Shown here: one piece after another, positions 2-16,273 of the stretch
How positions within the stretch are numbered: position 1 is the stretch's first letter
Layout of the letters: every line of letters starts with the position of its first letter
IMG/VR virus record: IMGVR_UViG_3300017963_003108
Coordinates: 1 to 22,357 of that record
Length of the DNA stretch: 22,357 bases
Source of the DNA: a virus
Strand: one strand, 5' to 3'
Program-made: the position numbers and the translations under genes
The notes under the pieces: model-generated
The model's database searches: none
Seen by the model: the letters and a program-made list of their open reading frames with translations, nothing else
Told to the model about the DNA's origin: nothing

Positions 2-808
2 GTCGGTCTGATGCAAGGTCCAGCGCACGCGTGCATCAACACGCTCTCCCGGAACGCGCCCATCTGGACGAAGGGTGCGGTGCTGTACTGGGACATTCGG
101 GGTGGTTCTCTCGTCGTCGCACGAGGGGCGCGTGCGTACAGCGCTGTCCAGGCAAGCGCCGGGACGGGGAACTACTGGACCTACGATCGCGGTAAGGGGC
201 AGTTCATCCAGGTCGCTGCCGCCGCGCCATCCTTCCCGCTCGATGGCTTCTTCGCAGACGCGCGGACCGCTTACTTCAACGACACGACGAACGCCAGCCG
301 CGGACCGTTCACGCTTGAAGCGGGGGCGACCAGCTCTACCCCAGCACTCGCAGCGGATTACATAGTCGATCCGACGACCATCCCGATGGCGAACGGTTTC
401 CGCATCGCGAACGCGACCGGGTCGGACAAGCGGTTCTATCGCCTGGAATCGACGTCCGGGACGTACCGCCGCTGCTTCTCGCTCCTCGCGCGGCGCGTAG
501 ACGGCGGTGGTGGAGGCGTGATCGATGCGTCCGTGCTGCAGCTGTACACGGCGACATCGGCAGACCCGCTCGGCGCGAACACGCTCGAAACGCCGACGAC
601 CTACAAGAAGATCCGCGGGGACGGGTGGTATGAGCTGTGGGCGTTCACTCCGATCAGTGGAGCGAACATCTACTATGGCGGCATCCTCGCAGACGGGTAC
701 GAGGTCGAGATCGAGGCGCCGATGACCGAGAGCGTCGGGACGACGACGCTCGGCGCGCGGGCGCAGTTCACCGAGAACCCCGGCGCGGGTTCGTTGAGCC
801 CGCCCTAG
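2..808 (+). CDS. Tail-fibre / carbohydrate-binding protein, N-terminal portion (5' end outside window)
   Basis: The frame is open from base 2 with no stop before the ATG at 11, and no Shine-Dalgarno sequence precedes that ATG, so I take this as the 3' part of a gene that starts upstream. The visible product (about 268 residues) is rich in Gly, Ser, Thr and aromatic residues and looks beta-stranded. Its last part (CFSLLARR, GWYELWAF, YEVEIEAPMTES) reads like the lectin/CBM-like module common in phage tail fibres. In such modules a conclusion like 'PSYIES' usually follows the 'EAPM..' strand. That sequence is present here, but only in the +1 frame after the TAG at 806-808 (see next entry). The likely role is host-surface or glycan binding at the tail tip. 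No catalytic motif is visible. Family identity is inferred from pattern only. Confidence 0.7.
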   Translation, partial: VGLMQGPAHACINTLSRNAPIWTKGAVLYWDIRGGSLVVARGARAYSAVQASAGTGNYWTYDRGKGQFIQVAAAAPSFPLDGFFADARTAYFNDTTNASRGPFTLEAGATSSTPALAADYIVDPTTIPMANGFRIANATGSDKRFYRLESTSGTYRRCFSLLARRVDGGGGGVIDASVLQLYTATSADPLGANTLETPTTYKKIRGDGWYELWAFTPISGANIYYGGILADGYEVEIEAPMTESVGTTTLGARAQFTENPGAGSLSPP

Positions 809-1361
809 CTACATCGAATCGGCGCGGACGTCCGGCATCGCGGAACCGTACCCGGCATGCGGATGGGTCGGTGCGGGCTTCACGAACCGGTGGGCGCACG
901 ATGAGCCCTACGATCAGCCCGGTCCGCGGTGGAAGACCGGCTATATCGTGAACTGGCAGGCGGACGCCAGCAACAAGGTCGCCGTCTACATGAGCCAGAC
1001 CAGTCAGCTGTGGGTTGGCTGGATGCGCAAGGCGGGCGTGTCGGAGCTGTTCCTCACTGGTCCCGCCACGTGGGCGGAGAACGAGGCGATGGGCTTCGTC
1101 GTGACGTGGGGAACGCGCAAGGGCTCGCAGTACGGCGTCGTCGCGATCAACGGGAAGCAGTACGACGTAGAGACCGCATTCGCGCTACCGACCGGGACGC
1201 CGAACTACGTCGAGATCGGGGACGTTGGTAGCCTCGGTTACGGGCAGCCTGCGAACTGCCACGTCGAGGCGATGGCGGTTGGGCGGCAAGCGCTCACACG
1301 GCTCGACGCTCGTCATCTCTCGCTCTGGTTCCGCGATCAGGCTGTGGGGGTCATCCGGTGA
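798..1361 (+). CDS. Tail-fibre protein, frame-shifted C-terminal portion (ConA/LamG-like domain)
   Basis: This frame opens right after a TGA at 795-797 and begins ARPSYIESARTSG, the usual continuation of the module that ends the preceding frame. It then runs without a stop to TGA 1359-1361. There is no good start codon near 798. If the product is made independently, the first credible start is GTG 948, giving 137 residues with only a weak GGAAG upstream. The sequence from 948 on (MNWQAD..., VAVYMSQTSQLWVGWM, GFVVTWGTRKGSQYGVVAING) looks like a concanavalin/LamG-type beta-sandwich, common at fibre tips. I infer that 2-808 and 798-1361 encode one fibre protein, joined by +1 frameshifting or split by a recent indel or sequencing error. 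The next gene starts at GTG 1358, overlapping the stop by four bases. Confidence 0.6.
   Translation, partial: ARPSYIESARTSGIAEPYPACGWVGAGFTNRWAHDEPYDQPGPRWKTGYIVNWQADASNKVAVYMSQTSQLWVGWMRKAGVSELFLTGPATWAENEAMGFVVTWGTRKGSQYGVVAINGKQYDVETAFALPTGTPNYVEIGDVGSLGYGQPANCHVEAMAVGRQALTRLDARHLSLWFRDQAVGVIR
803..809 (+). other. Candidate +1 frameshift site, CCC-TAG-C
   Basis: In the upstream frame the last codons are CCG CCC TAG. A proline tRNA on CCC (803-805) could slip one base onto CCT (804-806). The next codon would then be AGC, followed by TAC ATC GAA, giving ...SPPSYIES... and joining the two halves of the fibre. A proline codon before a stop in a CCCT context is the arrangement expected for a +1 slip. 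A simple indel is equally compatible with the sequence. Confidence 0.4.
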
Positions 1362-4300
1362 GCGGACTCTTCACGGGTGGTGCAGGTTCGACCGTCGTTC
1401 CCTTCGGGGACGGTACTGTTGCACGCACGGGTAGCGCGTGGAACCCGTATGACGGCAAGTCCTACCGCGAGAACAAGCCGCGGTTCGGGGATGGGCTGAT
1501 CTTCAACTGCGCCGTGCGCCCGAAGCTCTTCGACACGTTCACCGAGCCGACGAGCTTCATGTGGTACCACCCGACGCAGGGCACACCCAACCTCATCGAC
1601 CGGCAGGCGACGTTCGAGACGCAGTACCCCGAGTTCGACAAGGTCGTCCTCGGGTCGTCCTACCAGGGGCGCGAGATCGTCGGCTACCGCCTCGGACCCA
1701 TCACGCGGAAGCACTGGGTTGTGGACATGGTTGTTCACGGGAACGAGGCGGATGGCGCGCAGGGCACCTTCCGCGCGATGGAGATTCTCGCGCGAGATCC
1801 GATCTTCCAGGCGTTCCGCGACGAGTGGACCATCTTCTTCGTTCCGGCGTTGAACCCGGATGGGTGGTATCTCGGAACGCGCAACCTCGCGGAGATCGGT
1901 CCGAACGGGTTGACCATCAACCTCAACCGAAATTGGGATTGGTTCTGGGACGAGTACGCTGCGTCATCATACGAGTCGAAGGGCTCCGCGCCCGAGAGTA
2001 CGTTGGAAGCGCAGGCGTTCCTCAACTACTACCGCGACCCACAGGTCACGTTCGGCTTCCTCCTCGACCAGCACGCAGACCGTGGCGTCGGCGCACGGTA
2101 CATGAGTCGTGACCGAATCTGGCGGCAGCTTGCACTGGCGCCGGGTGTGGCGGGCGAGGTGCCGAACAACTGGCGGACGCTGTGGCTCGACTGGATCATC
2201 TGGCGCTACGTCGGGCACGTCACCCACATCAGAGCCCGCGATGCTGGTGGGTTCGACAACTACTGTCGATACTACCGGAGCCGCTTCCGTCCGCACCTTC
2301 ACAGTTACTTCAGCTCCCTCGGCGTCATGTCGATGGCGATGGAAGACGAGAAGGTCTCCGATGCGGGCGGGCGCGAGACGGTCGCGAGCGCGTGCAACTT
2401 CCGTCTCGACGCGACGCTTGCAGCGGCGATCTGCTGTACGGAATCGCTTTGGATCAACGACTACGAAGAAGCGCTTCTGCTCGAAAGCGGACCGCGTGCG
2501 CAACTGCTGAGTAATGCGAACTTCCGCAGTTGGCAGGACGACGAGTACCGCCCTGGTTTCTACACGATGAGTCGCATGACGACCGCGCGGGCATCGGAGG
2601 CGAACAGCTACAACGAGGACGGCGGGCGCGCGACGGAGATGACGTCGCAGACACTCATCGAGCTGTCACAGGCGGCGGAGTTCAACGCGGGTGCGCTGAC
2701 GGGCTACACGTCAGCTCTCATCGTCACGAGTCAGGGGCAGCTGTTCAAGATACCGACGGCGGTCGCTGACGAATCTGGCGACGTCATCGACCCGCTGTCG
2801 AGCTTCACCAGCTGGATGGGCGCGGCAGCTTTTGCGGGCGACGTGGACGGTACTATCCAGGTCTTCGGTGGTGGGTCGTCGGAGAAGGACGCTGCTCCGA
2901 CGACGCAATACTACCGGCTCTCAGACACGACGGAGACATCCCTCGTCGCAGTAGGAGCAGTCCCTCCCGGTACGCAGCACGCCGGCTTTTGCGACAACTT
3001 CCTCGACGACCCGTCTCTTGCCGCACGCGAGGGATATCTCGTCGGAGGGTGGACCGGCATCGCGCCGACGCAGGCGATGTACAAGGTCAACGTCGCGACG
3101 CTCACGTGGACGCTCTCGGCGGCAACGCTACCGACGCCGACGTACGGGGCGCTCGCGGTTTACGATCCCGTCCGCAACTACGTGTGGATCATCGGCGGCT
3201 TCAATGCAGCGGGTACGCCACAGACATCGGTAGGCTACTGGGACATCGGTGCCGACACGTACACGCCGACGGCTCCTCTACCGCTCGCGCTGGGCTACGT
3301 GGCGGGCGTGTATGCGCGGTTCGATGGTCGCATCTACGCCTACGGTGGTCAGCTCAGTACGGGGGACATGTCCCCTAACATCTACCGACTCAACCCTGCG
3401 AGTGGGGCGTGGACGCTGCTGTCCGTCACGGCGAACCTCGATGACGACGAGGACCAGCAGGAACCGGAAGACCCGGTGTGGACTATCCAGCTGGGTCGCG
3501 CGCAGGCGCTCCTCCCCGTTGAAACCTCGACGGACAACGGTGTCATCTACCTGCTCGGCGGGCGTCAGGTTAGCACGAGCGGCGCGCTCGCGGATGACTT
3601 CTACAAGCACGACCTCTACGACGAGATCATCGGGCGCGTCGCAGACGCCGACTACGGCTACATCCGCTACTCGACCTCCGTTCAGACCCCGTGGGTAGAG
3701 TTCGTCGCTGCGTTGCAGCCGTGGGTCACTGCGGGTGCGGGGACCGGGACGTGGACGAACGCTCCGGCGAATTGGAGCGCGGCTCCGGCGGGGTTGAACC
3801 CGGCGGGAACGAAGACGGGCGCCGCTGGTAACGCAGCGCTCACGCATAGCGAGACGCCTCCGACCTACGTCAGCTATCGGATGCGGGCGGACGTCTTTCT
3901 CGACGGGGCGGGCACCATCGTGTCCTTCCGGGCAGTCGTGCGCGCGTCCTACATCGGCGCCAACATCCAGGACGGTTACCGCGTCAGGAACGACAACGCC
4001 GGAACGACGTGGACGCTGGAGCGCTACAACAGCACCTCAGGTACAACGCTCGCGACGACGACGGCAGCAGTCATCGATACGACGCCGCGCGAGCTTGACG
4101 TGCGTGTGCTTGGGCAAGATCCCGTGCGGCTTGTCGTGCTGTTCGATGGGGTGGAGCTGTTCAACTACACCGACGCGTCGGTCAACCGACTCCGAACGAA
4201 CGGCGTATCTGGGTATGAGGGTCAGAGTGGCACGGCGAACCTCGTCGTCTCCGACTACTACGCGGAGGACACGGCAGCTGGGGAGGAGATGTTCACAGGC

Positions 4301-5863
4301 TCGTCGCTCGTGCAGTCGAAGCTCGCAACATCGACGGGCTACACGCGTCTTTCCATCCAGCCTGGCGCTCAGGAGGTCGCCGACGCTGAGTACGTAACGC
4401 GACGAGTCCGTAACTACTACACTATTCCACCATCAGGGTTCTGGTTCAACTACCGCGTGCGCGCGTTCCTCCGGCACGGTCCGCGGGCGTTCGTCGAGGA
4501 TCGCATTCGCTACTACACGCGCGTCTACAAGGATTCGCAGGTCGCCCGCATTGACGGCTTCATGCTGGCGAAGGGAACGCTCTTCGGGCAGTCGTACCTC
4601 GACACCGACGCGGTCAGCGGTCCCGAGACGTGCACCTTCGCGACAGCGGTGCAGATGAACCGACTGCACGCTTCGTTCTCGTGGTTGCCGACGTTCGGTT
4701 ACCCCGACGTCGTGGATTCGGATTTCGAGCTGGCACGCTTCTCGATCGACGTGAACAACTACCTCGCAATCATCCTCGTCGCGGGGAATGACGAGGAACG
4801 CGAGTTCAACCGCGACGACCTCTACGCCCAGCATGACCCCGTCATTCGCTTGTCGAAGGTGCAAGCGGGCTCCGAGGTCGACTACGTTGACATCGTCTGC
4901 TACTACGGTTACGCGATGCGGGAGCCGGGTTGCGAACGTGTGGATGATCCGGTCCGCTTCACCATCGTTCACGTCGAGGACCAGCTATTCCGCTTCTCCG
5001 TCGAGCGTTTTGGCTTCGTCGTGCATCGGGAGTCTACAACGGACCTCACCGGTTACTCGACGACGGCGGGGACGCTGTCCTACACGGGGCACGGGCTCTA
5101 CGGGAAGCCGACCATCAGCTACGACGGCATGCACGCGAACGGGATGCACGCACCGCTCGGGCGGCACGCGATCGACCAGCGACTTCGTGATCGTGATAGT
5201 GTCGGAGTGTTCGTTGCGGGGGAGCGTGATCCGACGCAGGGCGGCATCTCGACCTACAACAAGATCCGCCCGTTCATCGACGGGGACGACTTCACACGTC
5301 CGGATGACGCCAACCTCGGATACGGTTGGGACATCATCAAGCAGACGGGGAACGGCTTCAACATCGTCTCCAGCAAGGCGCAGTGTGCGGAACTGGGGTT
5401 CGAGAGTCGTGAGGGTGACCCGCGTCACGCGGACTACATCGCTGCGGCAGACCTCACCGTGCAGAACAATAACGACATCGTCGGCATCCTCGCGCGGATC
5501 GACCGCTTCATGTCGGAGACTGTCCCGGGTGACGAGCCGTTCGGGTACGGGTTCGAGCTGATCCAGACGGGACCGACGGCGGCGACCCTTCGCATCGTGA
5601 CCTACTGGAACGGTGTGAGGGAGATACTCGCCACGCAGGCGCTATCGTCCTACACTGCGGGTGAGACGCTACGGCTGGTGGTGACGACGAGCGGGACATC
5701 GCTCCGAGGTGAGATTTCGGGGCGAGCCATCGTGACGACGACGGACACGCTGTTCAAGCGTCCGGGTCGTCCGGGGATCATGGGAGAGACGGGCGGGCCG
5801 GCGCAGTTCGTCACGGTCGACAACTGGACTCTGACCGAGAATTTCGAGTCGAGCACGGTGTAG
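1358..5863 (+). CDS. Giant tail-fibre protein with M14 metallocarboxypeptidase, kelch propeller and lectin-like domains
   Basis: The 1501-residue product starts at GTG 1358 (GTGA overlap with the preceding stop, G-rich stretch upstream). Residues ~85-365 carry the peptidase M14 signature: GSSYQGREI near 99-107, zinc ligands H127 and E130 in HGNE, NPDG at 166-169, R175, NRNWD at 190-194 (the carboxylate-binding Asn-Arg of carboxypeptidase A), a third zinc ligand H239 in LLDQHAD, and E329 or E331 as catalytic glutamate. Residues ~497-740 have five kelch-like strands with GG doublets (QVFGGG, YLVGGW, WIIGGF, YAYGGQ, YLLGGR). Residues ~790-970 and ~1305-1501 look like ConA/LamG-type sandwiches. 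I see no signal peptide or membrane segment. Its place among fibre genes indicates a virion component. The likely action is trimming peptides of cell-wall stems or surface proteins during adsorption; the substrate is unknown. All expected M14 residues appear intact. Confidence 0.8.
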   Translation: MSGLFTGGAGSTVVPFGDGTVARTGSAWNPYDGKSYRENKPRFGDGLIFNCAVRPKLFDTFTEPTSFMWYHPTQGTPNLIDRQATFETQYPEFDKVVLGSSYQGREIVGYRLGPITRKHWVVDMVVHGNEADGAQGTFRAMEILARDPIFQAFRDEWTIFFVPALNPDGWYLGTRNLAEIGPNGLTINLNRNWDWFWDEYAASSYESKGSAPESTLEAQAFLNYYRDPQVTFGFLLDQHADRGVGARYMSRDRIWRQLALAPGVAGEVPNNWRTLWLDWIIWRYVGHVTHIRARDAGGFDNYCRYYRSRFRPHLHSYFSSLGVMSMAMEDEKVSDAGGRETVASACNFRLDATLAAAICCTESLWINDYEEALLLESGPRAQLLSNANFRSWQDDEYRPGFYTMSRMTTARASEANSYNEDGGRATEMTSQTLIELSQAAEFNAGALTGYTSALIVTSQGQLFKIPTAVADESGDVIDPLSSFTSWMGAAAFAGDVDGTIQVFGGGSSEKDAAPTTQYYRLSDTTETSLVAVGAVPPGTQHAGFCDNFLDDPSLAAREGYLVGGWTGIAPTQAMYKVNVATLTWTLSAATLPTPTYGALAVYDPVRNYVWIIGGFNAAGTPQTSVGYWDIGADTYTPTAPLPLALGYVAGVYARFDGRIYAYGGQLSTGDMSPNIYRLNPASGAWTLLSVTANLDDDEDQQEPEDPVWTIQLGRAQALLPVETSTDNGVIYLLGGRQVSTSGALADDFYKHDLYDEIIGRVADADYGYIRYSTSVQTPWVEFVAALQPWVTAGAGTGTWTNAPANWSAAPAGLNPAGTKTGAAGNAALTHSETPPTYVSYRMRADVFLDGAGTIVSFRAVVRASYIGANIQDGYRVRNDNAGTTWTLERYNSTSGTTLATTTAAVIDTTPRELDVRVLGQDPVRLVVLFDGVELFNYTDASVNRLRTNGVSGYEGQSGTANLVVSDYYAEDTAAGEEMFTGSSLVQSKLATSTGYTRLSIQPGAQEVADAEYVTRRVRNYYTIPPSGFWFNYRVRAFLRHGPRAFVEDRIRYYTRVYKDSQVARIDGFMLAKGTLFGQSYLDTDAVSGPETCTFATAVQMNRLHASFSWLPTFGYPDVVDSDFELARFSIDVNNYLAIILVAGNDEEREFNRDDLYAQHDPVIRLSKVQAGSEVDYVDIVCYYGYAMREPGCERVDDPVRFTIVHVEDQLFRFSVERFGFVVHRESTTDLTGYSTTAGTLSYTGHGLYGKPTISYDGMHANGMHAPLGRHAIDQRLRDRDSVGVFVAGERDPTQGGISTYNKIRPFIDGDDFTRPDDANLGYGWDIIKQTGNGFNIVSSKAQCAELGFESREGDPRHADYIAAADLTVQNNNDIVGILARIDRFMSETVPGDEPFGYGFELIQTGPTAATLRIVTYWNGVREILATQALSSYTAGETLRLVVTTSGTSLRGEISGRAIVTTTDTLFKRPGRPGIMGETGGPAQFVTVDNWTLTENFESSTV

Positions 5864-6873: not shown

Positions 6874-7638
6874 ATGGCGTTCAACACCGCGGTCATCGCT
6901 GGTGCAGAGGAGTACACCTCCTGGGACGACGTCCTCGCCCGTCCTGCCTCGGACGGGGACAGGATCATGTTCATGGGGTTGAAGTGGATCTATGACGGGA
7001 CCAACTCCATCTGGGTTCCGGATTGGGCGTATGGAGAGACCCTCTCCGAGGTGACGAAGGTAGACGGCGACGAGGCGAACGACGCAGCTCTCGTAGCGCA
7101 AGGGTGGACCGTCACGAAAAGCGGCGGCACCACTTCGTTCGACGGGACGCGAGTTCGTCTCTATAGCGCTGGTGCGACCGGGCATACATGCTACCTACAG
7201 CGTAGCACCGCAGGGGGAGCCGGAAACACCTACTTCGCCTACGGGCGCATTCGTGTTGATTCCTTCATCGGGTCCAACTTCTACGCGGGATGCATCCTCT
7301 CGATCAAGGAAGGCACACGTTACCGGGCCTTTGAGTTTCGCTACACGACAGCGAACCAATACTCTGCGTTTTGTAATGCCGGGGCTTCGACCCTTGGGAC
7401 CGTCGATGATGATGTGGACGCCTCGAACGAGCAGTTCTACCTGATCCGCTTCCAGGATTCGGATCGGAGCATGGCGTGGATTGATGGGTCTGGCAAGCTA
7501 TCCGCACCATGTACGTTCCACGGGGCTGGAGGCTTCTCCAGCTCTGGAGCCGGGGACTTGATCATCCAGTTCGGAGGCTTCGCTGGAAACGCGAGCAGCG
7601 ATATCTACATCCGGGATTTCGTGATCGCGAGGTACTGA
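6874..7638 (+). CDS. Fibre-like paralogue A, 254 aa
   Basis: ATG 6874 follows TAGGAGA with good spacing. The product is the first of three tandem paralogues. It shares with paralogue C (8446-9216) the segments TSWDD, MFMGLKW, IWVPD, AYGETL, a following DGDE(A/V)NDAAL and the ending ..ARY. The N-terminal ~60 residues (MFMGLKWIYDGTNSIWVPD) look like a compact beta module seen in phage tail proteins. The remaining ~190 residues form a probable ConA-like sandwich (YGRIRVDSFIGSNFYAGCILSI, QFYLIRF, MAWIDGSGK). No catalytic residues can be assigned. The stop overlaps the next ATG by one base (TGATG). A role in receptor binding or virion decoration is inferred from context. Confidence 0.7.
   Translation: MAFNTAVIAGAEEYTSWDDVLARPASDGDRIMFMGLKWIYDGTNSIWVPDWAYGETLSEVTKVDGDEANDAALVAQGWTVTKSGGTTSFDGTRVRLYSAGATGHTCYLQRSTAGGAGNTYFAYGRIRVDSFIGSNFYAGCILSIKEGTRYRAFEFRYTTANQYSAFCNAGASTLGTVDDDVDASNEQFYLIRFQDSDRSMAWIDGSGKLSAPCTFHGAGGFSSSGAGDLIIQFGGFAGNASSDIYIRDFVIARY
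6965..6987 (+). repeat. Direct repeat copy 1, inside paralogue A
   Basis: This 23-base segment, encoding the MFMGLKW stretch, is identical to 8537-8559 in paralogue C. It is the best-conserved DNA between the two genes and supports origin by duplication or repeated recombination. Confidence 0.8.
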
Positions 7639-8444
7639 TGGCATTCAACACATCTGTCATCGCTGGTGTTCCGGTCTATGGTTCCTGGCTGGACATCCTG
7701 AGCTTGTCGGCTGACGACGGGGACACGGTCGTCCTGAACATGCCCACTGGACAACCAGCTCTGCGTATCTACGACAGCGGGATGGGCACATGGGTACCTC
7801 CTGAGGTCTACGGTAGGTTCACGGACTGGTCGTTGACAGCGGAGGTAGAGGGTTCTGAGGCAGACGCGGCTGCTCTGCTTGCGAAGGGAACCAACGTCAA
7901 CCTCTATGCTGGTTCGTCAACGCTCACCTACAACGACAGCGGGAAGCTGCGCATCCTGAATAGCGGTGCGACAGACGGCTGTGCCATTGAGTGCAACACA
8001 GGACCATCAAATGGATACTCTGTGTTCATGCATGGGTTGGCTCGCGTGGTTCAGTGCAGCACCTACAATGACATCTACTTCGTTGCGAACGACTCGTCGC
8101 ACATGGTCCCGGCGTTGTCATGGTGTGACCAGACAGGCAATGACTACCCGCGCCCGATGCTCACGTCGCCAGCAGTAAGAGGAACCCAGACGCTCGTCAA
8201 TAGCAGCGTGGCGACTCTGCTGGCGTCTGAGGGCTTCCTTGAGGTCTTCGTCATCGGCAATAACGATGACCGTTCCCTCCCGGACGCTGCCATGTTGTTC
8301 TGGCTGAACGGCGTCCTTGCTGGGTTCCTCGACAAGACCGACATGAACTCCGGGGGTGGATCGAACTACTGCAACCTCGTCCAGGTGAATAGCAACACGA
8401 ACGAGATCACCATGCGCAAGTTCGAGACGTGGGTGAGGGCGTAA
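7638..8444 (+). CDS. Fibre-like paralogue B, 268 aa
   Basis: I start this gene at ATG 7638, in the TGATG overlap with paralogue A, because the resulting N terminus MAFNTSVIAG matches MAFNTAVIAG of paralogue A. The same frame is open upstream to 7509, but that part is antiparallel to the logic of the overlap and has atypical composition. The body is more diverged than A and C: it keeps a W-x-DI segment, the GTWVPPEVYG strand, SEADAAALLAKG and an FLEVFVIGNNDD...AMLFWLNGVL segment that corresponds to the LIRF...AWIDG strand pair of A. It is probably beta-rich throughout, with no enzyme motif. The stop at 8442-8444 sits one base before the next ATG. Surface or receptor-binding function is inferred. 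Confidence 0.7.
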   Translation: MAFNTSVIAGVPVYGSWLDILSLSADDGDTVVLNMPTGQPALRIYDSGMGTWVPPEVYGRFTDWSLTAEVEGSEADAAALLAKGTNVNLYAGSSTLTYNDSGKLRILNSGATDGCAIECNTGPSNGYSVFMHGLARVVQCSTYNDIYFVANDSSHMVPALSWCDQTGNDYPRPMLTSPAVRGTQTLVNSSVATLLASEGFLEVFVIGNNDDRSLPDAAMLFWLNGVLAGFLDKTDMNSGGGSNYCNLVQVNSNTNEITMRKFETWVRA

Positions 8445-8445
8445 T

Positions 8446-9216
8446 ATGGCAGCTAATACGAACTACCCCAGCATCGGCGTCCAAGAGATCACCTCCTGGG
8501 ATGACCTCCCGTCCAGTCCGCTGGACGGGCAGGCCCTCATGTTCATGGGGTTGAAGTGGCGGTATGACACGACCAACGGTATCTGGGTTCCTGACTTCGC
8601 CTATGGGGAGACTCTGGCAGGGATCTGCAAGATCGACGGAGATGAGGTCAACGACGCTGCTCTACTCGCGAATGGTTGGACGTCGGTCAACCATACCAAT
8701 GGAGGAACAATCTCCTACGACGGTACGCGAGTGACGTTCACCGCTACAGTAGCCAACAATCAGACTGCGGAAGTTCTCGGCGATCATGGAGGTGGTGTCA
8801 ACGACGACTACTTCCTCTACGGTCGATTTCGGGCGGTCTCTTACGTCGGACCTGGCAGTAATCCCTCATGCTTCCTGGCTATTCAAGATGGTGCCCACAC
8901 GCGCACTTTCGGTCTCCGCTATACAACCACAAATACGGAAGCCTGTTTCTTCAAGATAAGCGGGAGCCGACAAGGTTATGCCGACTCCACGGTGGAGTTC
9001 ACTACCGAGAAGTTCCTCCTCATACGGTGGAGTGGTCTTGGAGCCAAGCACAGCCATTGTTGGGTTGAAGGCCACGTCGCTCTACCTTCCCCTTCCGCTA
9101 CTTATGTTGGAACGGACCACTCCGCCTCGGCAGCGCAGCGGTTTCTGATTGGTGACAGCACAGGTAATGCTGGGGGCGCCCTCACAGCTCGCAACGTAGT
9201 CTGCGCGAGGTACTGA
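8446..9216 (+). CDS. Fibre-like paralogue C, 256 aa
   Basis: ATG 8446 lies one base after the previous stop, with GTGAGGG upstream. The product is collinear with paralogue A over nearly its whole length: SWDDLPSSPLDGQALMFMG, IWVPDFAYGETLAG, DGDEVNDAALLANGW, YDGTRVTF, a ConA-like core (DYFLYGRFRAVSYVG, TFGLRYTT, KFLLIRWSGLG, HCWVEG) and the C terminus ..ARNVVCARY against ..IRDFVIARY in A. The conserved N-terminal ~65 residues with a more diverged remainder fit a common attachment part carrying a variable binding part. It is followed by a TGATG overlap. I infer a fibre or decoration protein. The exact family name is not recognised. Confidence 0.7.
   Translation: MAANTNYPSIGVQEITSWDDLPSSPLDGQALMFMGLKWRYDTTNGIWVPDFAYGETLAGICKIDGDEVNDAALLANGWTSVNHTNGGTISYDGTRVTFTATVANNQTAEVLGDHGGGVNDDYFLYGRFRAVSYVGPGSNPSCFLAIQDGAHTRTFGLRYTTTNTEACFFKISGSRQGYADSTVEFTTEKFLLIRWSGLGAKHSHCWVEGHVALPSPSATYVGTDHSASAAQRFLIGDSTGNAGGALTARNVVCARY
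8537..8559 (+). repeat. Direct repeat copy 2, inside paralogue C
   Basis: These 23 bases are identical to 6965-6987 in paralogue A and encode the same MFMGLKW region. Confidence 0.8.
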
Positions 9217-9452
9217 TGATCGACACAGTCCCTATCTGGGTCATGCGACGGGACGGACCCAAGGGTGTGGGCTACTACCCCACCTCCAAGGGGTCCTACC
9301 ATCTTCTGGCAGAAGGGAGGCACAATGCTGAACCAGGAGTGATTCCTGTTGCTCATCTGGCGCGGAGACGACGCCAACTATCCGAGGACTTCGGCGCACG
9401 TCTTCTGCAACGGCTTTGGGCCTCAACCAGTCTGCACAGCGATTGGGAATAG
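9216..9452 (+). CDS. Doubtful small ORF, 78 aa, 5' part of a broken paralogue
   Basis: ATG 9216 overlaps the stop of paralogue C (TGATG), as the other junctions in this block do, so translation would probably initiate here. The first ~45 residues (MIDTVPIWVMRRDGPKGVGYY...) look plausible. From about residue 48 the product turns Arg-rich (HLARRRRQLSEDFGARLLQRLW), which is typical of reading a GC-rich gene out of frame. At the same point the paralogue-like sequence continues in the +1 frame (next entry). I therefore read this as the intact start of a decayed gene with an out-of-frame tail, not as a well-conserved protein. It could still be expressed as a short peptide. Confidence 0.35.
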   Translation: MIDTVPIWVMRRDGPKGVGYYPTSKGSYHLLAEGRHNAEPGVIPVAHLARRRRQLSEDFGARLLQRLWASTSLHSDWE

Positions 9453-9561
9453 TGGTTGGCCGTCAGCAGGTGGGGCCGACCTAATCAGCGTGGGTGCGAA
9501 TGCTGGTGTAGATACAGGCGTCATGCAGGTCCGCAACCTCGTGGCGGGGACGTTCTCATAG
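9322..9561 (+). pseudogene. C-terminal remnant of a fourth fibre paralogue
   Basis: In the frame ending at TAG 9559-9561 the sequence reads TMLNQE, then TGA at 9340-9342, then FLLLIWRGDDANYPRTSAHV, FCNGFGPQP and a C terminus VGANAGVDTGVMQVRNLVAG. This matches the C-terminal strand order of paralogue C (TTEKFLLIRWSGLG, HCWVEG, TGNAGGALTARNVVCARY). The in-frame TGA falls between the Glu and Phe of the aligned E(K/*)FLL segment, and the 5' part of the gene is in a different frame. I infer a paralogue broken by a deletion or frameshift plus a nonsense change. A TTG at 9349 could start a 70-residue peptide, but it has no convincing ribosome binding site. Confidence 0.5.
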
Positions 9562-9570
9562 GGGTGTTTC

Positions 9571-9717
9571 ATGGGACTCTTTGATGGCTGGTGGAACTGG
9601 CGTGACCCTACGCCCGGCAAGCAGCTTGCCGACATGGATGTCGGACTGAAGATCATCGTCGTCATCGTCGCGATCTTGATCATCCTACTGCTCCTCGTCA
9701 CGGCGGATCAACTCTGA
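9571..9717 (+). CDS. Small single-pass membrane protein, 48 aa
   Basis: ATG 9571 is preceded by ATAGGGGTG at about the right distance, and the TGA at 9715-9717 overlaps the next ATG by one base, like its neighbours. The product is 48 residues: a Trp-rich amphipathic start (GLFDGWWNWRDP), a short charged linker (GKQLADMDVGLK) and one strongly hydrophobic segment at residues 28-43 (IIVVIVAILIILLLLV), then a short polar tail. Gene packing and the sharp membrane segment make chance unlikely. It could be a holin-like or lysis-accessory peptide, or an inner-membrane protein acting at infection. Nothing in the sequence decides, and no endolysin gene is adjacent. Confidence 0.6.
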   Translation: MGLFDGWWNWRDPTPGKQLADMDVGLKIIVVIVAILIILLLLVTADQL

Positions 9718-10052
9718 TGGCAGCCAACACGAAAGTAGGGTTGGGCTTCGGCGACCCGCTCACGGTGGTCGAGAAGGCGTCAGCCGACAGTCCCTACACC
9801 GTCCAGTCAACCGATCAGGTCGTCGCGCTTACGGTCGATGGTTCGATCACGGTCAACCTATCCACGGCTGCGACGTTCGGTCTCAACAAGCGCCTCATCA
9901 TCAAGGATGTCTCCGGTGGGGCGGGCGTCAACAACGTCACGATCGATGGCGCCGGGGCGGAGACGATCGACGGGCGCAGCAGCATTCTGCTAACCAGCAA
10001 CTATGCGACGGTGACGCTGATGGCTGTCACAGGAGGATGGGCAGTCGTATGA
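9717..10052 (+). CDS. Small tail-fibre/decoration protein, 111 aa
   Basis: ATG 9717 overlaps the preceding stop (TGATG). The product has the pattern of a widespread phage fibre segment: a lead such as SPYTVQSTDQVVALTVDGSI, then TVNLSTAATFGLNKRLIIKD, then NNVTIDGAGAETIDGRSSI and a final strand ATVTLMAVTGGWAVV. This order (lost-value strand, 'IKD', 'ITIDG.G.ETIDG', 'TL....GW.V') recurs at the ends of many tail-fibre and virion proteins and probably forms a small trimeric beta-domain. The N terminus MAANT matches that of paralogue C and resembles MAFNT of A and B. A structural role at the tail tip or capsid surface is inferred. Confidence 0.65.
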   Translation: MAANTKVGLGFGDPLTVVEKASADSPYTVQSTDQVVALTVDGSITVNLSTAATFGLNKRLIIKDVSGGAGVNNVTIDGAGAETIDGRSSILLTSNYATVTLMAVTGGWAVV

Positions 10053-10639
10053 CCGAGCGAATACCAGTACCGAGGTACACGGACCAGATTGGTACGACGC
10101 TGGAGGGAGACAAGAAGGCTGCGCTCACGTATGACGACTATCGGGACACCGGTTTTCCGTTTGGCTGCTTTCGTCACGACCAGGACAATGAACTCTTTCT
10201 CTCGTATCAATTCCCTCATGCGAGGCGTCTGAATGCCCCGTTGGGGGACTTCCATCTGCACACTATTCCGCTATCGACTCCTGTGCTCGGAGTCTCAGAT
10301 CATCTTTACTTCGTGTACTCCTACGTGTGGGTAGGCATCGGTCAGGAGCTTCCAGCGATAGCAGGCTGGAATACCGGCACGAAGACGGTCACAATCAGCG
10401 CAGCCGGTCAGCACATTCACACGTACTTCGACATCTTCGATAACATAGCTGCGCCGGTTCCCGACACGTACAGCAGCTTCCTATTCATCAAGCTCAAGCG
10501 GGAAGGGACGAACGTACTCGATACGTTCAACGTGGACAAGACGACGCCAGGCACTGCTGCGGCGAACCTCGCTCTCATGGGATTGGATTGTCATATGCTC
10601 GTCGACCGCCTCGGCAGCTTCTACGAATACTCGGACTGA
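10049..10639 (+). CDS. Phage virion protein of unknown role, 196 aa
   Basis: I place the start at ATG 10049, in a four-base ATGA overlap with the preceding gene and 12 bases after AGGAGG (10031-10036). The in-frame ATG at 10037 directly abuts that AGGAGG and is too close to use it. The product has a pattern I have seen in unnamed phage structural proteins: FLSYQFPHARRLNAPLGDFHLHTIP (a His-x-His strand), YFVYSYVWVGIGQELPAIAGW, a long Thr/Ser strand TKTVTISAAGQHIHTYFDIF, TYSSFLFIKLKREG..DTF and a C-terminal LMGLDCHMLVDRLGSFYEY. It is predicted to be all beta and perhaps trimeric, attached to fibre or head. It has no membrane segment or enzyme motif. Confidence 0.6.
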   Translation: MTERIPVPRYTDQIGTTLEGDKKAALTYDDYRDTGFPFGCFRHDQDNELFLSYQFPHARRLNAPLGDFHLHTIPLSTPVLGVSDHLYFVYSYVWVGIGQELPAIAGWNTGTKTVTISAAGQHIHTYFDIFDNIAAPVPDTYSSFLFIKLKREGTNVLDTFNVDKTTPGTAAANLALMGLDCHMLVDRLGSFYEYSD

Positions 10640-11282: not shown

Positions 11283-12107
11283 ATGCCGAACATCCCGCAG
11301 GGTCCGACGAAGAACGAGAGCTTCGCGGGGCTCTCTTCTCATGCCCCGGCGTACCCGGACATCGCGCCGGAGACGTGCCTGCGGATCATGGACAAGGCGA
11401 TGCTGGAGTGGCTGCAGAGCATCCGCTTCCGCGGGCAGGAGCCTACCCTCGTCGCGGGGTGGAAGTCGAGGTACTTCAGCTCCGTGAAGGAGATGCACGG
11501 GGACAAGCGGCTCGGCGACAAGCAGCAGGTACCGCTGCCGATGATCGCGCTCCTCAATCAGGGTCTCTCCCCCGACCCGAGTCGCTTCGTCTTCGGGAAC
11601 GTGCGCCGGCTCGGACCGGGCGCCGCCGACGAGACGAACACCATCTACCACGGCACGCCGCCGAACGAGGAAGGCGTGCTGTTCCTGCCCTGGCCCTTGC
11701 CGGTCGATATCACGTACCAGATCGAGCTGTGGACTAAGGAACAGCAGGACATGCGGTACCTTCGTACCGCGCTCCTCATGCAGTGGTCCACGCATCCGAC
11801 GGAGACCTACCTCCGGGTTGTCTTCCCCGCGCCGTACGGGGAGAAGCTCATCCCCCTGCAGTTCGAGCGCGACGACAACATCAGCGACTTGGAGCCCGGG
11901 GAGCAGGAGCGACGCCTCCGTCACGCGTTCACGGTGACGATGAAGGGCTGGCTGTTCAAGGTTCCCATCCTGCAGAAGACGATCAAGAACGCGCACGTCG
12001 TCTTCCTTCATGGGAGCTACGACGAGCTTGTTGACTGGTACTGCAACATCGACAACTACAACTTCAACGCGGATTACTCCGTGTTGGAGAGCATCGACGA
12101 ACCGTAA
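11283..12107 (+). CDS. gp15-like tail completion / sheath stabiliser protein, 274 aa
   Basis: ATG 11283 follows GGGGTAA. The length (274) is close to T4 gp15 (272), and the central and C-terminal pattern fits: PWPLPVDITYQIELWTKEQQDMRYL corresponds to the gp15 segment with 'IYELSIFTRYEDDM', and a later RRLRHAFTVTMKGWLFKVP corresponds to its 'RRIEWSLTFEVNGWMYPP'. In T4 this protein forms the hexameric cap on the top of the tube and sheath and joins tail to head. Its position just before the sheath gene, with only a small gene between, agrees with the T4-type order 15-18-19. The N-terminal ~60 residues (PAYPDIAPETCLRIMDKAM) are less clearly matched. The alignment is from memory of motifs, so the assignment is probable but not certain. 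Confidence 0.65.
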   Translation: MPNIPQGPTKNESFAGLSSHAPAYPDIAPETCLRIMDKAMLEWLQSIRFRGQEPTLVAGWKSRYFSSVKEMHGDKRLGDKQQVPLPMIALLNQGLSPDPSRFVFGNVRRLGPGAADETNTIYHGTPPNEEGVLFLPWPLPVDITYQIELWTKEQQDMRYLRTALLMQWSTHPTETYLRVVFPAPYGEKLIPLQFERDDNISDLEPGEQERRLRHAFTVTMKGWLFKVPILQKTIKNAHVVFLHGSYDELVDWYCNIDNYNFNADYSVLESIDEP

Positions 12108-12512: not shown

Positions 12513-14786
12513 GTGGCAGTCTACATCTCTGCTGGTGTGTACATTCAGGAGCGGGACAACTCCCTGTACGCCCCCGCGATTGCCCCGACGGTCATCGGTA
12601 TCGTCGGCACCGCGACGAAGGGGCCACTCAACACTGCGACCCTCGTGACGACCGAGGCGCAGATGACCGACATCTTCGGCGTCCCGCGCACGAAGGACAT
12701 GGGCATGCACACGGCGCTGGAGGCGCTGAAGGAGTGCAGGCTCCTGTACTACTGCCGGATCGCGGGCGCCAGCGTCGCGAAGGGTGTCATCAACGTCAAC
12801 GACGATGGCTCGGGCGCAACTTCGGGATGCACACCGCAAGCTGCCAACAACGAGTATTACAACCTGGAGCCGGGCGCGACGATCGTCTTCACCGACAGCG
12901 TTGCGGGCACGGCGACGTTCACCGCGACCGCTGCACCCCTCACCTCCGGCAACGCGGAGACGTACAACCTCAACGCCATCGCGGCGGGCTCGCCGGTCAC
13001 GCTGACCATCAAGGTCGATCAGGGACCGACGCAGACGTGCACCATCGCCTCCGGTGACGTCTCGAACTTCGCCGCTGTCACCGCGCTGGAAGTCGTGACG
13101 CTCCTCAACGCGCAGATTTTCGGCATCCAGGCGACGGTCTCCGCGACCTCCGTGAAGATCCAGAGCGACACGCGCGGCACGGGGAGCTACATCCAGGTCA
13201 CGGGCGGCACTGGCAACGACGCGACGAACGGTCTCAACTTCTCGACGACCGAGGTGCAGGGCACGGGCAACGTCGTCAGCATCGATGCCGTCACGGGTGC
13301 GGAGATCAAGACGGTCGTCGAGGCAGCCATCGCGACGATCTCGGTCAGCCTCAGCGTCAACGGCGCCCCGACGTTCTGCACGGTCGCGACCGGCGCGGCG
13401 GCGACTATCGGCATCAACGCGACCTCGACCGCAGTTGGGGCAGCGCCTCTCATCTCCGTTCCGACAGGGGTGACGTACGCCGGGCTCGACGCGGCGCTGT
13501 CGCAGAACACCATTAGCTTCACGGCAGCTACGGACGGCTCGCATTCCAGCGAAATCGATGTCGTCATCTCGACCTCGACCATCCACGCGAACCTGAAGAA
13601 GGTCGTCATCATGTACCGCGACGCGGTGGTCGAGACGTACGACGGGCTCTACAAGGGCACCGATCCGTCGCTCTCGAACATCACGTACTACGAGATGATC
13701 ACGACGATCAACAGCGGCTCGACAGACGGCGCGTTCCCCGCGTCGGAGTACGTCGTCGCAGCAGACCTCAACGCGGCGGCGGAAGACCCGACGAACGGCA
13801 CGCACACGCTCTCCGCGGGCAACGATGGTGACGACTGGACGACCGGCACGGTCATCGGTACGGTCGTCGGGAAGACGCGCACGGGCATGCAGGTGTTCGG
13901 CGACCCGGAGCTGATCTACATCACCATCCTCGCCACGCCGGGCATCGCGTACCCCGCGGTCATCTCCGAAGGTCTGAGCATGTGCCAGACCCGCGCCGAT
14001 TGCTTCTACGTCGCGGACCCGCCGCAGAGCCTCACGCCCTCGGAGGTCGTGGACTGGCACAACGGCAACGCGGGCGCGACGTACGTAGTCGATCAGGAGG
14101 GGCGGAGCGAGAGCGGCGCGAACACGACGCAGTTCAACAGCTCGTACGGTGGGCTCTGGCACGACTACTTCACGATGTTCGACGCGTTCAACGACTCGAA
14201 CATCACGATGCCGCCGTCGGCGATCATCCTCCGCACGCTGGGTTACACCGACAACGTCGCTGACCCGTGGTGGGCTCCTGCCGGTCCGAACCGGTCGCAG
14301 ACGAGTTCGGTCATCGAGCTGGCGTCGTCGCCGACGCAGGGCGAGCGCGACCTCATGCAGATGCAGGGGAACAACGTCAACCCGATCGCGCTCATCAGCG
14401 GCGCGGGCATCGTCATCATGGGGCAGAAGACGCTGCAGAAGGCGCCGACGGCGCTCGACCGCGTCAACGTCCGGCGCCTCATGCTCTACGCGGAGAAGAT
14501 CGTCGCGACCGCGGTGCTCTTCCTCACGTTCGAGCCGAACGATCCGACGATGTGGCGGCGCTTCATCAACCTCGTGCAGCCTGTCTTCGACGACATCGCC
14601 GCGCGGCGAGGTATCGACGACTTCCGGGTCATCGCGGACAGCTCGACGAACACCGACGTGCTCATCAACCAGAACACGTTCCTGGGCAAGATATTCCTGA
14701 TTCCGACAAAGTCGGCGGAAAAGATCGTGGCGGAGTTCAATCTTTTGCCCGCGGGGGCCGACTTCACAGAGTATGCGCAGGTATAG
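12513..14786 (+). CDS. Contractile tail sheath protein (gp18-like), 757 aa
   Basis: GTG 12513 is preceded by AGGGAGGAG. The N terminus (SAGVYIQERDNS, then TVIGIVGTATKGPLNTATLVTT and DIFGVP) is the standard sheath opening. The C-terminal ~300 residues carry the conserved core: SLTPSEVVDWHN, DPWWAPAGPNR, LISGAGIVIMGQKTLQ, LDRVNVRRLMLYAEKIV and a final INQNTFLGKIFLIPTKSAEKIVAEFNLLP. Between them, residues ~95-330 form a Thr/Val/Ala-rich insertion of beta strands (VTLTIKVDQGPTQTCTIASG, SVKIQSDTRGTGSYIQVTGG) likely to project from the outer surface. At 757 residues it is longer than T4 gp18 (659). The protein polymerises around the tube and contracts to drive it through the envelope. The assignment is firm. 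Confidence 0.92.
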   Translation: MAVYISAGVYIQERDNSLYAPAIAPTVIGIVGTATKGPLNTATLVTTEAQMTDIFGVPRTKDMGMHTALEALKECRLLYYCRIAGASVAKGVINVNDDGSGATSGCTPQAANNEYYNLEPGATIVFTDSVAGTATFTATAAPLTSGNAETYNLNAIAAGSPVTLTIKVDQGPTQTCTIASGDVSNFAAVTALEVVTLLNAQIFGIQATVSATSVKIQSDTRGTGSYIQVTGGTGNDATNGLNFSTTEVQGTGNVVSIDAVTGAEIKTVVEAAIATISVSLSVNGAPTFCTVATGAAATIGINATSTAVGAAPLISVPTGVTYAGLDAALSQNTISFTAATDGSHSSEIDVVISTSTIHANLKKVVIMYRDAVVETYDGLYKGTDPSLSNITYYEMITTINSGSTDGAFPASEYVVAADLNAAAEDPTNGTHTLSAGNDGDDWTTGTVIGTVVGKTRTGMQVFGDPELIYITILATPGIAYPAVISEGLSMCQTRADCFYVADPPQSLTPSEVVDWHNGNAGATYVVDQEGRSESGANTTQFNSSYGGLWHDYFTMFDAFNDSNITMPPSAIILRTLGYTDNVADPWWAPAGPNRSQTSSVIELASSPTQGERDLMQMQGNNVNPIALISGAGIVIMGQKTLQKAPTALDRVNVRRLMLYAEKIVATAVLFLTFEPNDPTMWRRFINLVQPVFDDIAARRGIDDFRVIADSSTNTDVLINQNTFLGKIFLIPTKSAEKIVAEFNLLPAGADFTEYAQV

Positions 14787-14873: not shown

Positions 14874-15662
14874 TTGACCGAAGGCAACAGCGAGACGGTC
14901 ATCATCTACGGCTTGCAGGCGCAAGGTGGGAAGGTCCGATACGTCGGTGCGTCGGTGGACCCAAGTCACCGGCTCGAACAGCATATGAGCGACGCTCGTT
15001 CGCCGGATGCGCGCGACTACAGGACTCCGAAGAGTCGATGGATTCGCAACCTCAAGCATCCACCAGAGGTTGTTCGTCTGGAAGAGGTGACACAAGGCGA
15101 CGCCGCCGAATCAGAAAAGCGATGGATTGCGTTCTTCTACGTGCAGGGGAACAAGCTCTTCAACGTCTTGTGGTTCGGTCCGCGTCCGTGGTTGTCGGAA
15201 GCGGCGCGTACGAAGATGGCGGAATCCGCACGTCGCCGATGCAAAGACCCGGCGCATCGTGCACTCCTGTCGGAGATCGCGCGAGAGCGTTTGAAGACGC
15301 CCGAAGGGCGCGCTCACCTCAGGCGCGCGAGCGCGCTCGGCGTGCAGGTGTTGAAGAACGACGCCGGGGCTCGGCAACGTCGTCAGGTCGGCATCAAGCG
15401 CGCATGGGACGAGGCGACTCCGGAGCAGCGTGCGTCACGTGTTGCGAACGCAAAAGCGGGCGTCAACGCTCCCGGGGTTCAGGAGCGGAAGGCGAAAGCC
15501 ATCTCAGCTGCGAAACTTCGTCGTTGGGCGAAGAAGGGATGGACGAAAGAGCACATCGAGTCGGTCATTGCGGAGAGTCGGAACCTCAACGTGGCGGCAG
15601 CGTCGCTCGGTTGTACACGCCCGACTCTTCACCAGATCCGCAAGCACTACGGGTTGACGTAA
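14874..15662 (+). CDS. Free-standing GIY-YIG homing endonuclease, 262 aa
   Basis: I choose TTG 14874 because AGGAGG (14863-14868) lies five bases upstream and the frame closes at a TAA shortly before. Residues ~9-97 hold the GIY-YIG nuclease: IYGL at 11-14 (degenerate GIY), YVG at 23-25, R33 in RLEQH, catalytic E81 in AESEKRWI and the closing LFN at 95-97. Residues ~107-150 (LSEAARTKMAESARRR, ALLSEIARERLKTPEG) resemble NUMOD3 DNA-binding repeats, and ~239-262 (NVAAASLGCTRPTLHQIRKH) looks like a helix-turn-helix. The product should cut a specific site in related phages lacking the gene, often in an adjacent conserved gene, and spread by repair. It separates the sheath and tube genes, which are normally neighbours. 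Key catalytic residues are present, so it may be active. Confidence 0.85.
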   Translation: MTEGNSETVIIYGLQAQGGKVRYVGASVDPSHRLEQHMSDARSPDARDYRTPKSRWIRNLKHPPEVVRLEEVTQGDAAESEKRWIAFFYVQGNKLFNVLWFGPRPWLSEAARTKMAESARRRCKDPAHRALLSEIARERLKTPEGRAHLRRASALGVQVLKNDAGARQRRQVGIKRAWDEATPEQRASRVANAKAGVNAPGVQERKAKAISAAKLRRWAKKGWTKEHIESVIAESRNLNVAAASLGCTRPTLHQIRKHYGLT

Positions 15663-15709: not shown

Positions 15710-16273
15710 GTGACGCTCATCAATGCTCAGCACCTCGCCCCCGCGCTCGGCTTTTTCGAGCCGCAGCGGGCGTTCTCGTGGGTGCTGGAGATCGCGCTCG
15801 ACGACGTCGGTGACCAGATCCTCATCATGCAGTCGTTGGAGTCGTTCGGCGCGCCGAAGGAGTCGAACGACACCATCGAGCTGCATCACGGGAACGAGGT
15901 GCGGAAGGTCGCGGGCAAGGCGACGTTCGAGGACTTGACGCTCGTCGTCAAAGACTTCGTCGACTCCAAGACGGCGATGGCTGTCGCGAAGTGGCGGCGC
16001 CTCGTCTACAACCCCGAGACCGGCTCCATCGGGCTCGCGCGTGACTACAAGAAGTCGGCGGACCTCGCGATGTTCGCGCCCGACTTGTCGAGCGTGCGCG
16101 TCTGGAAGCTCTACGGCGTGTGGCCGAAGGACGTGGACTACGGCACGCTTGACATGACGTCGTCGGACAAGGTGACGGTCTCGCTCACGCTCAGCATTGA
16201 CAGGGCTATCCCCGGCTTCGGGATGGCGCTCCCGGCTGGTATCAACCAGGGGCTCTCGCAGCTCCCGATCTGA
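15710..16273 (+). CDS. Tail tube protein (gp19-like), 187 aa
   Basis: The start is GTG 15710, eight bases after AAGGAGG. The product fits the T4 gp19-like tube family in length (187 against 163 in T4) and pattern: an N-terminal FEPQRAFSWVLEIAL, LIMQSLESFGAPKESNDTIELHHGNEVRKVAGKATFEDLTLVVKDF in the middle, and a C-terminal VRVWKLYGVWPKDVDYGTLDMTSSDKVTVSLTLSIDRA. The protein should form stacked hexameric rings giving the inner tube through which DNA passes. It sits downstream of the sheath as usual, but a homing endonuclease intervenes. A strong stem-loop follows the stop. The assignment is firm on pattern and context. Confidence 0.88.
   Translation: MTLINAQHLAPALGFFEPQRAFSWVLEIALDDVGDQILIMQSLESFGAPKESNDTIELHHGNEVRKVAGKATFEDLTLVVKDFVDSKTAMAVAKWRRLVYNPETGSIGLARDYKKSADLAMFAPDLSSVRVWKLYGVWPKDVDYGTLDMTSSDKVTVSLTLSIDRAIPGFGMALPAGINQGLSQLPI

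Follow-up and report, generated by a model that had tools for sequence, protein, structure and literature searches.

The enzymes carried by phage tails are mostly known as cutters of polysaccharide or peptidoglycan. M14 peptidases (zinc carboxypeptidases) on fibres were hardly discussed in the literature that we searched, where we found one remark, about Clostridium phage phiCP24R: a review mentions that a zinc carboxypeptidase domain, then unreported in viruses, was described in this phage in 2012 (PMC9234517). In our searches, Bacillus phages Moonbeam and Palmer, Staphylococcus phage StB20, and phage f2b1 proved to encode M14 proteins within their tail modules. These "zinc carboxypeptidases" are 521-620 amino acids long, belong to phages of Gram-positive hosts, and are encoded amid tail spike, fibre, or baseplate genes. 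We did not find a kelch propeller in the M14 proteins of Moonbeam, Palmer, or StB20. In Stenotrophomonas phage BUCT702, an M14 protein adjoins the holin. Carboxypeptidases T and A, the bacterial and animal M14 enzymes, are free enzymes. In classical carboxypeptidases, an Asn-Arg pair (together with Arg127) holds the C-terminal carboxylate of the substrate. PghP and PghL, which are small single-domain enzymes of phage origin with a related zinc-carboxypeptidase fold, have other substrate-binding residues, with His/Thr/Ser in place of Arg127/Asn144/Arg145 of carboxypeptidase (PMC6506827).

Here we describe a much larger M14 protein, of 1501 amino acids, from a viral sequence of 22,357 nucleotides (IMG/VR record IMGVR_UViG_3300017963_003108; "the window"). 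The first-pass annotation of the window had proposed that one open reading frame in a block of fibre genes encodes an M14 peptidase fused to a kelch region and two ConA-like regions. That open reading frame exists, on the plus strand and with a GTG start (Table 1). What is new is the combination of M14, kelch propeller, and long C-terminus; the tail M14 peptidase itself is already known, if little studied.

Table 1. Features of the window, with the basis for each.
Feature	Coordinates	Strand	Basis or remark
Upstream fibre gene	11..1361	+	interrupted by a frameshift near 805; its stop codon and the M14 start codon (GTG) overlap
M14-kelch fibre-block protein, 1501 aa	1358..5863	+	GTG start; homologue 76% identical in L002/L003
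N-terminal segment, residues 1-62	1358..1543	+	dN/dS 0.24, above that of M14
M14 zinc carboxypeptidase domain, residues 63-365	1544..2452	+	Pfam, fold match, dN/dS
HxxE zinc ligands H127 and E130	1736..1747	+	invariant in 16 M14 sequences
R175, candidate Arg127 equivalent	1880..1882	+	same residue in J2-1; alignment dependent
N190-R191, Asn144-Arg145 equivalent	1925..1930	+	invariant under both alignment settings
H239, third zinc ligand	2072..2074	+	invariant under both alignment settings
E329, candidate Glu270 equivalent	2342..2344	+	one alignment; predicted strand 324-330
Kelch beta-propeller, residues about 431-765	2648..3652	+	Kelch_3, Kelch_1
C-terminal region, residues 766-1501	3653..5863	+	no significant family match
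T4 gp15-like tail sheath stabiliser	11283..12107	+	Pfam E 4.6e-4, under cut-off
Tail sheath	12513..14786	+	PHROG 23, E 6e-69
Tail tube	15710..16273	+	PHROG 4542, E 1.4e-21

The membership of this protein in the M14 family is secure. The profile comparison with PF00246 that had been suggested gave a match over residues 85-240 (E = 1.4e-17) with 64.7 bits, which is about three times the curated cut-off of 21.6. As a single sequence compared to solved structures, the protein matched carboxypeptidase A (3.8e-5), and a profile that included bacterial relatives, whose rows dominate it, matched carboxypeptidase T (1.9e-47). The predicted fold, the zinc ligands, and the Asn-Arg pair are common to these enzymes and our protein, which also has candidates for Arg127 and Glu270.

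The residues that the first-pass annotation had named (H127, E130, R175, N190-R191, H239, and E329) are all at the positions given, in the motifs HGNE (127-130), NRNWD (190-194), DQHAD (which contains H239), and AMEDE (which contains E329). An alignment shows that the zinc ligands are also kept in other phage M14 proteins, including those from Moonbeam, Palmer, StB20, and f2b1. The spacing of R175 fits the equivalent of Arg127, and its placement varies with the alignment. The equivalent of Glu270 is more likely to be E329 than E331: in one alignment, this column is E in 16/16 sequences, while a second alignment setting disagrees. Because the alignments conflict and the profile matches to M14 end before E329, its placement rests on a low-confidence fold match that extends to residue 364 and on the pattern of predicted strands. 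The earlier description of the active site as apparently intact is supported, with the reservation that the position of Glu270 depends on the alignment.

An AlphaFold model that was built from an alignment of 16 sequences had low confidence (pLDDT 36.6). When we compared this model to known structures with Foldseek, the matches listed were carboxypeptidases (E about 2e-8), and carboxypeptidase A could be aligned to about residues 63-364 (VIA-align; Z about 11.6, about 240 residues aligned). The check by structure prediction that had been called for returned a low-confidence model with the M14 fold over the whole domain. Since the alignment from which the model was built contained M14 sequences, we view this match as support and not as independent proof.

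In a comparison of the window with L002 (76% identity), the peptidase evolves more slowly than any other part of the protein, with dN/dS of 0.07, versus 0.14 for the kelch region, about 0.2 for the C-terminus, and 0.24 for residues 1-62. Residues 241-345 of the M14 domain, which lie past the profile match, are equally constrained (0.05). A slowly evolving peptidase with a C-terminus that changes faster than the M14 or kelch parts is what one would expect if the enzyme works and the binding regions are freer to vary, and judging from these sequences, the M14 domain is likely to be catalytically active.

The kelch part of the earlier proposal stood as well. Kelch families matched the protein with E values of 1e-8 to 1e-11, and Kelch_3, Kelch_1, Kelch_6, and Kelch_4 were over the Pfam cut-offs. 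(For the kelch region alone, Kelch_3 had E = 1.1e-11 and Kelch_1 had E = 1.4e-10.) The five GG strands are visible at about residues 505, 562, 613, 663, and 734, or about 50 residues apart. The two ConA-like regions were not confirmed: neither Pfam nor PHROGs gave a significant match in the C-terminal region. The model of this region is unusable (pLDDT 26.9). It probably comprises beta-rich binding domains, and residues 1-62 are the probable attachment region.

The neighbouring genes support the placement of the M14-kelch protein in a phage tail or fibre block. Small fibre or baseplate genes lie downstream, and genes for gp9/10-like and gp15-like proteins, sheath, tube, hub, and tape measure are also downstream. 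Given this context, we rejected the idea of a free bacterial enzyme instead of a phage gene. Because the open reading frame overlaps the upstream fibre gene and lies ahead of the tail genes, we consider it likely, from gene order, that the protein is in the virion. The overlap (GTGA) is also present in L003, where the upstream fibre gene is a single open reading frame of 445 amino acids; the frameshift in the window is either a sequencing error or a real lesion.

Several other features of this region deserve mention. The window contains three tandem paralogues of about 255-267 amino acids (6874-7638, 7638-8444, and 8446-9216), and G001, a longer relative (95.6 kb) that also encodes a baseplate wedge protein and a family A DNA polymerase, has four (47223-50330). 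Several of these have a TSWDD motif near the start. They had no family match, and they are possibly a repertoire of fibre tips. The block at 9216-10639 is absent from the same place in G001, and contains a T4 gp9/10-like N-terminal domain (9717-10052). Between the sheath and tube genes, an open reading frame at 14874-15662 is similar to GIY-YIG proteins (E = 5.8e-4, just below the cut-off) and is 55% identical in a relative; this is a probable homing endonuclease. The polymerase is encoded within one open reading frame of 1732 amino acids (G001 88483-93681, which is L031 8483-13681), with a uracil-DNA glycosylase superfamily domain and with LAGLIDADG and HNH/intein matches, so it apparently carries two inteins.

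Comparing the whole 1501-residue protein to phage records with tblastn gave no match, while the M14 part alone gave relatives. The closest architecture outside its own lineage is ATN93378.1 ("Kelch motif family protein") from Pseudoalteromonas phage J2-1, which also has M14 and then a kelch propeller in one protein. The J2-1 protein has corresponding HGNE, NLNRNWD, and DYH motifs, as well as a similar acidic DDED stretch in the propeller region. The similarity of the M14 domains is significant (7e-10 by BLASTP; 96% by hhalign); that of the kelch regions is weak but collinear; and hhalign found no significant match for the C-terminus. The J2-1 protein is shorter (1098 amino acids, with a shorter C-terminus), the overall identity is about 23%, and its gene adjoins the terminase, outside the annotated tail genes, whereas the gene in the window is in a fibre block. 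Two scans for DNA motifs identified two more metagenomic phages, with M14 in a fibre-like protein of 1227 amino acids (L047) or in a protein of 514 amino acids (L038). L040 and L046 matched the patterns and were dropped, as we found no M14 protein in either. Apart from two contigs, the scans of viral sequences turned up no close relatives. Because Moonbeam, Palmer, StB20, f2b1, L038, and L047 have M14 proteins among their tail or fibre genes, and J2-1 has the same order of M14 and kelch, the first-pass annotation's description of the peptidase as unusual for a tail fibre was too strong.

We propose that the protein belongs to a tail fibre or baseplate appendage of a phage with a contractile tail, and that it has a competent M14 domain that trims peptides of the host envelope and kelch and C-terminal regions that bind. 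We consider this explanation fairly probable. It is rather improbable that the M14 domain is catalytically dead and is only a binding scaffold in the fibre: the uncertain placement of the Glu270 equivalent would allow this, but the zinc ligands and the Asn-Arg pair are all kept, and no other part of the protein is under stronger constraint than this domain, residues 241-345 included (dN/dS 0.05-0.08). We strongly doubt that the domain depolymerises capsular poly-gamma-glutamate in the manner of phage PghP. Related tail M14 genes are found in phages of Bacillus megaterium and of coagulase-negative staphylococci; StB20 has a PghP-type gamma-PGA hydrolase two genes downstream of its M14 gene, in the same tail module (L035 5620-9324); and the fold of PghP is carboxypeptidase-like (PMC6506827). 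However, R175, N190, and R191 are kept here, in contrast to the His/Thr/Ser of PghP and PghL (PMC6506827), and a Pfam search of the 1501-residue protein gave no match to PF05908, the PghP family. Because the Asn-Arg pair is kept (along with R175, if it is aligned correctly) and is absent from PghP-type enzymes, we favour an exopeptidase that acts on envelope peptides. A protease that is soluble or acts during assembly, processing other tail proteins rather than being exposed on the outside, would be in keeping with the position of the J2-1 gene by the terminase, but seems very unlikely: the protein's size, kelch propeller, variable C-terminus, and fibre-gene neighbours would better fit a surface appendage.

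If the protein is an envelope-trimming appendage, as we propose, then the propeller, together with the variable C-terminus, would bind the host surface and hold the enzyme there. On contact, the enzyme would remove C-terminal residues from peptides of the envelope, and candidate substrates are the stem peptides of peptidoglycan or a protein of the host surface. This trimming might help the phage to cross a barrier or to commit to a receptor. The presence in the virion, the activity, the substrate, and the order of binding and then cutting are all what we infer within this explanation. A bolder idea, which we think unlikely, is that fibres with M14 and kelch form a class of their own among virion enzymes, one that cuts a proteinaceous receptor or surface layer. 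If so, they would be the peptide counterpart of the tailspike polysaccharide depolymerases. More broadly, an M14 peptidase on fibres that recurs in unrelated phages points to a peptide-trimming step in entry, which is open to a simple assay.
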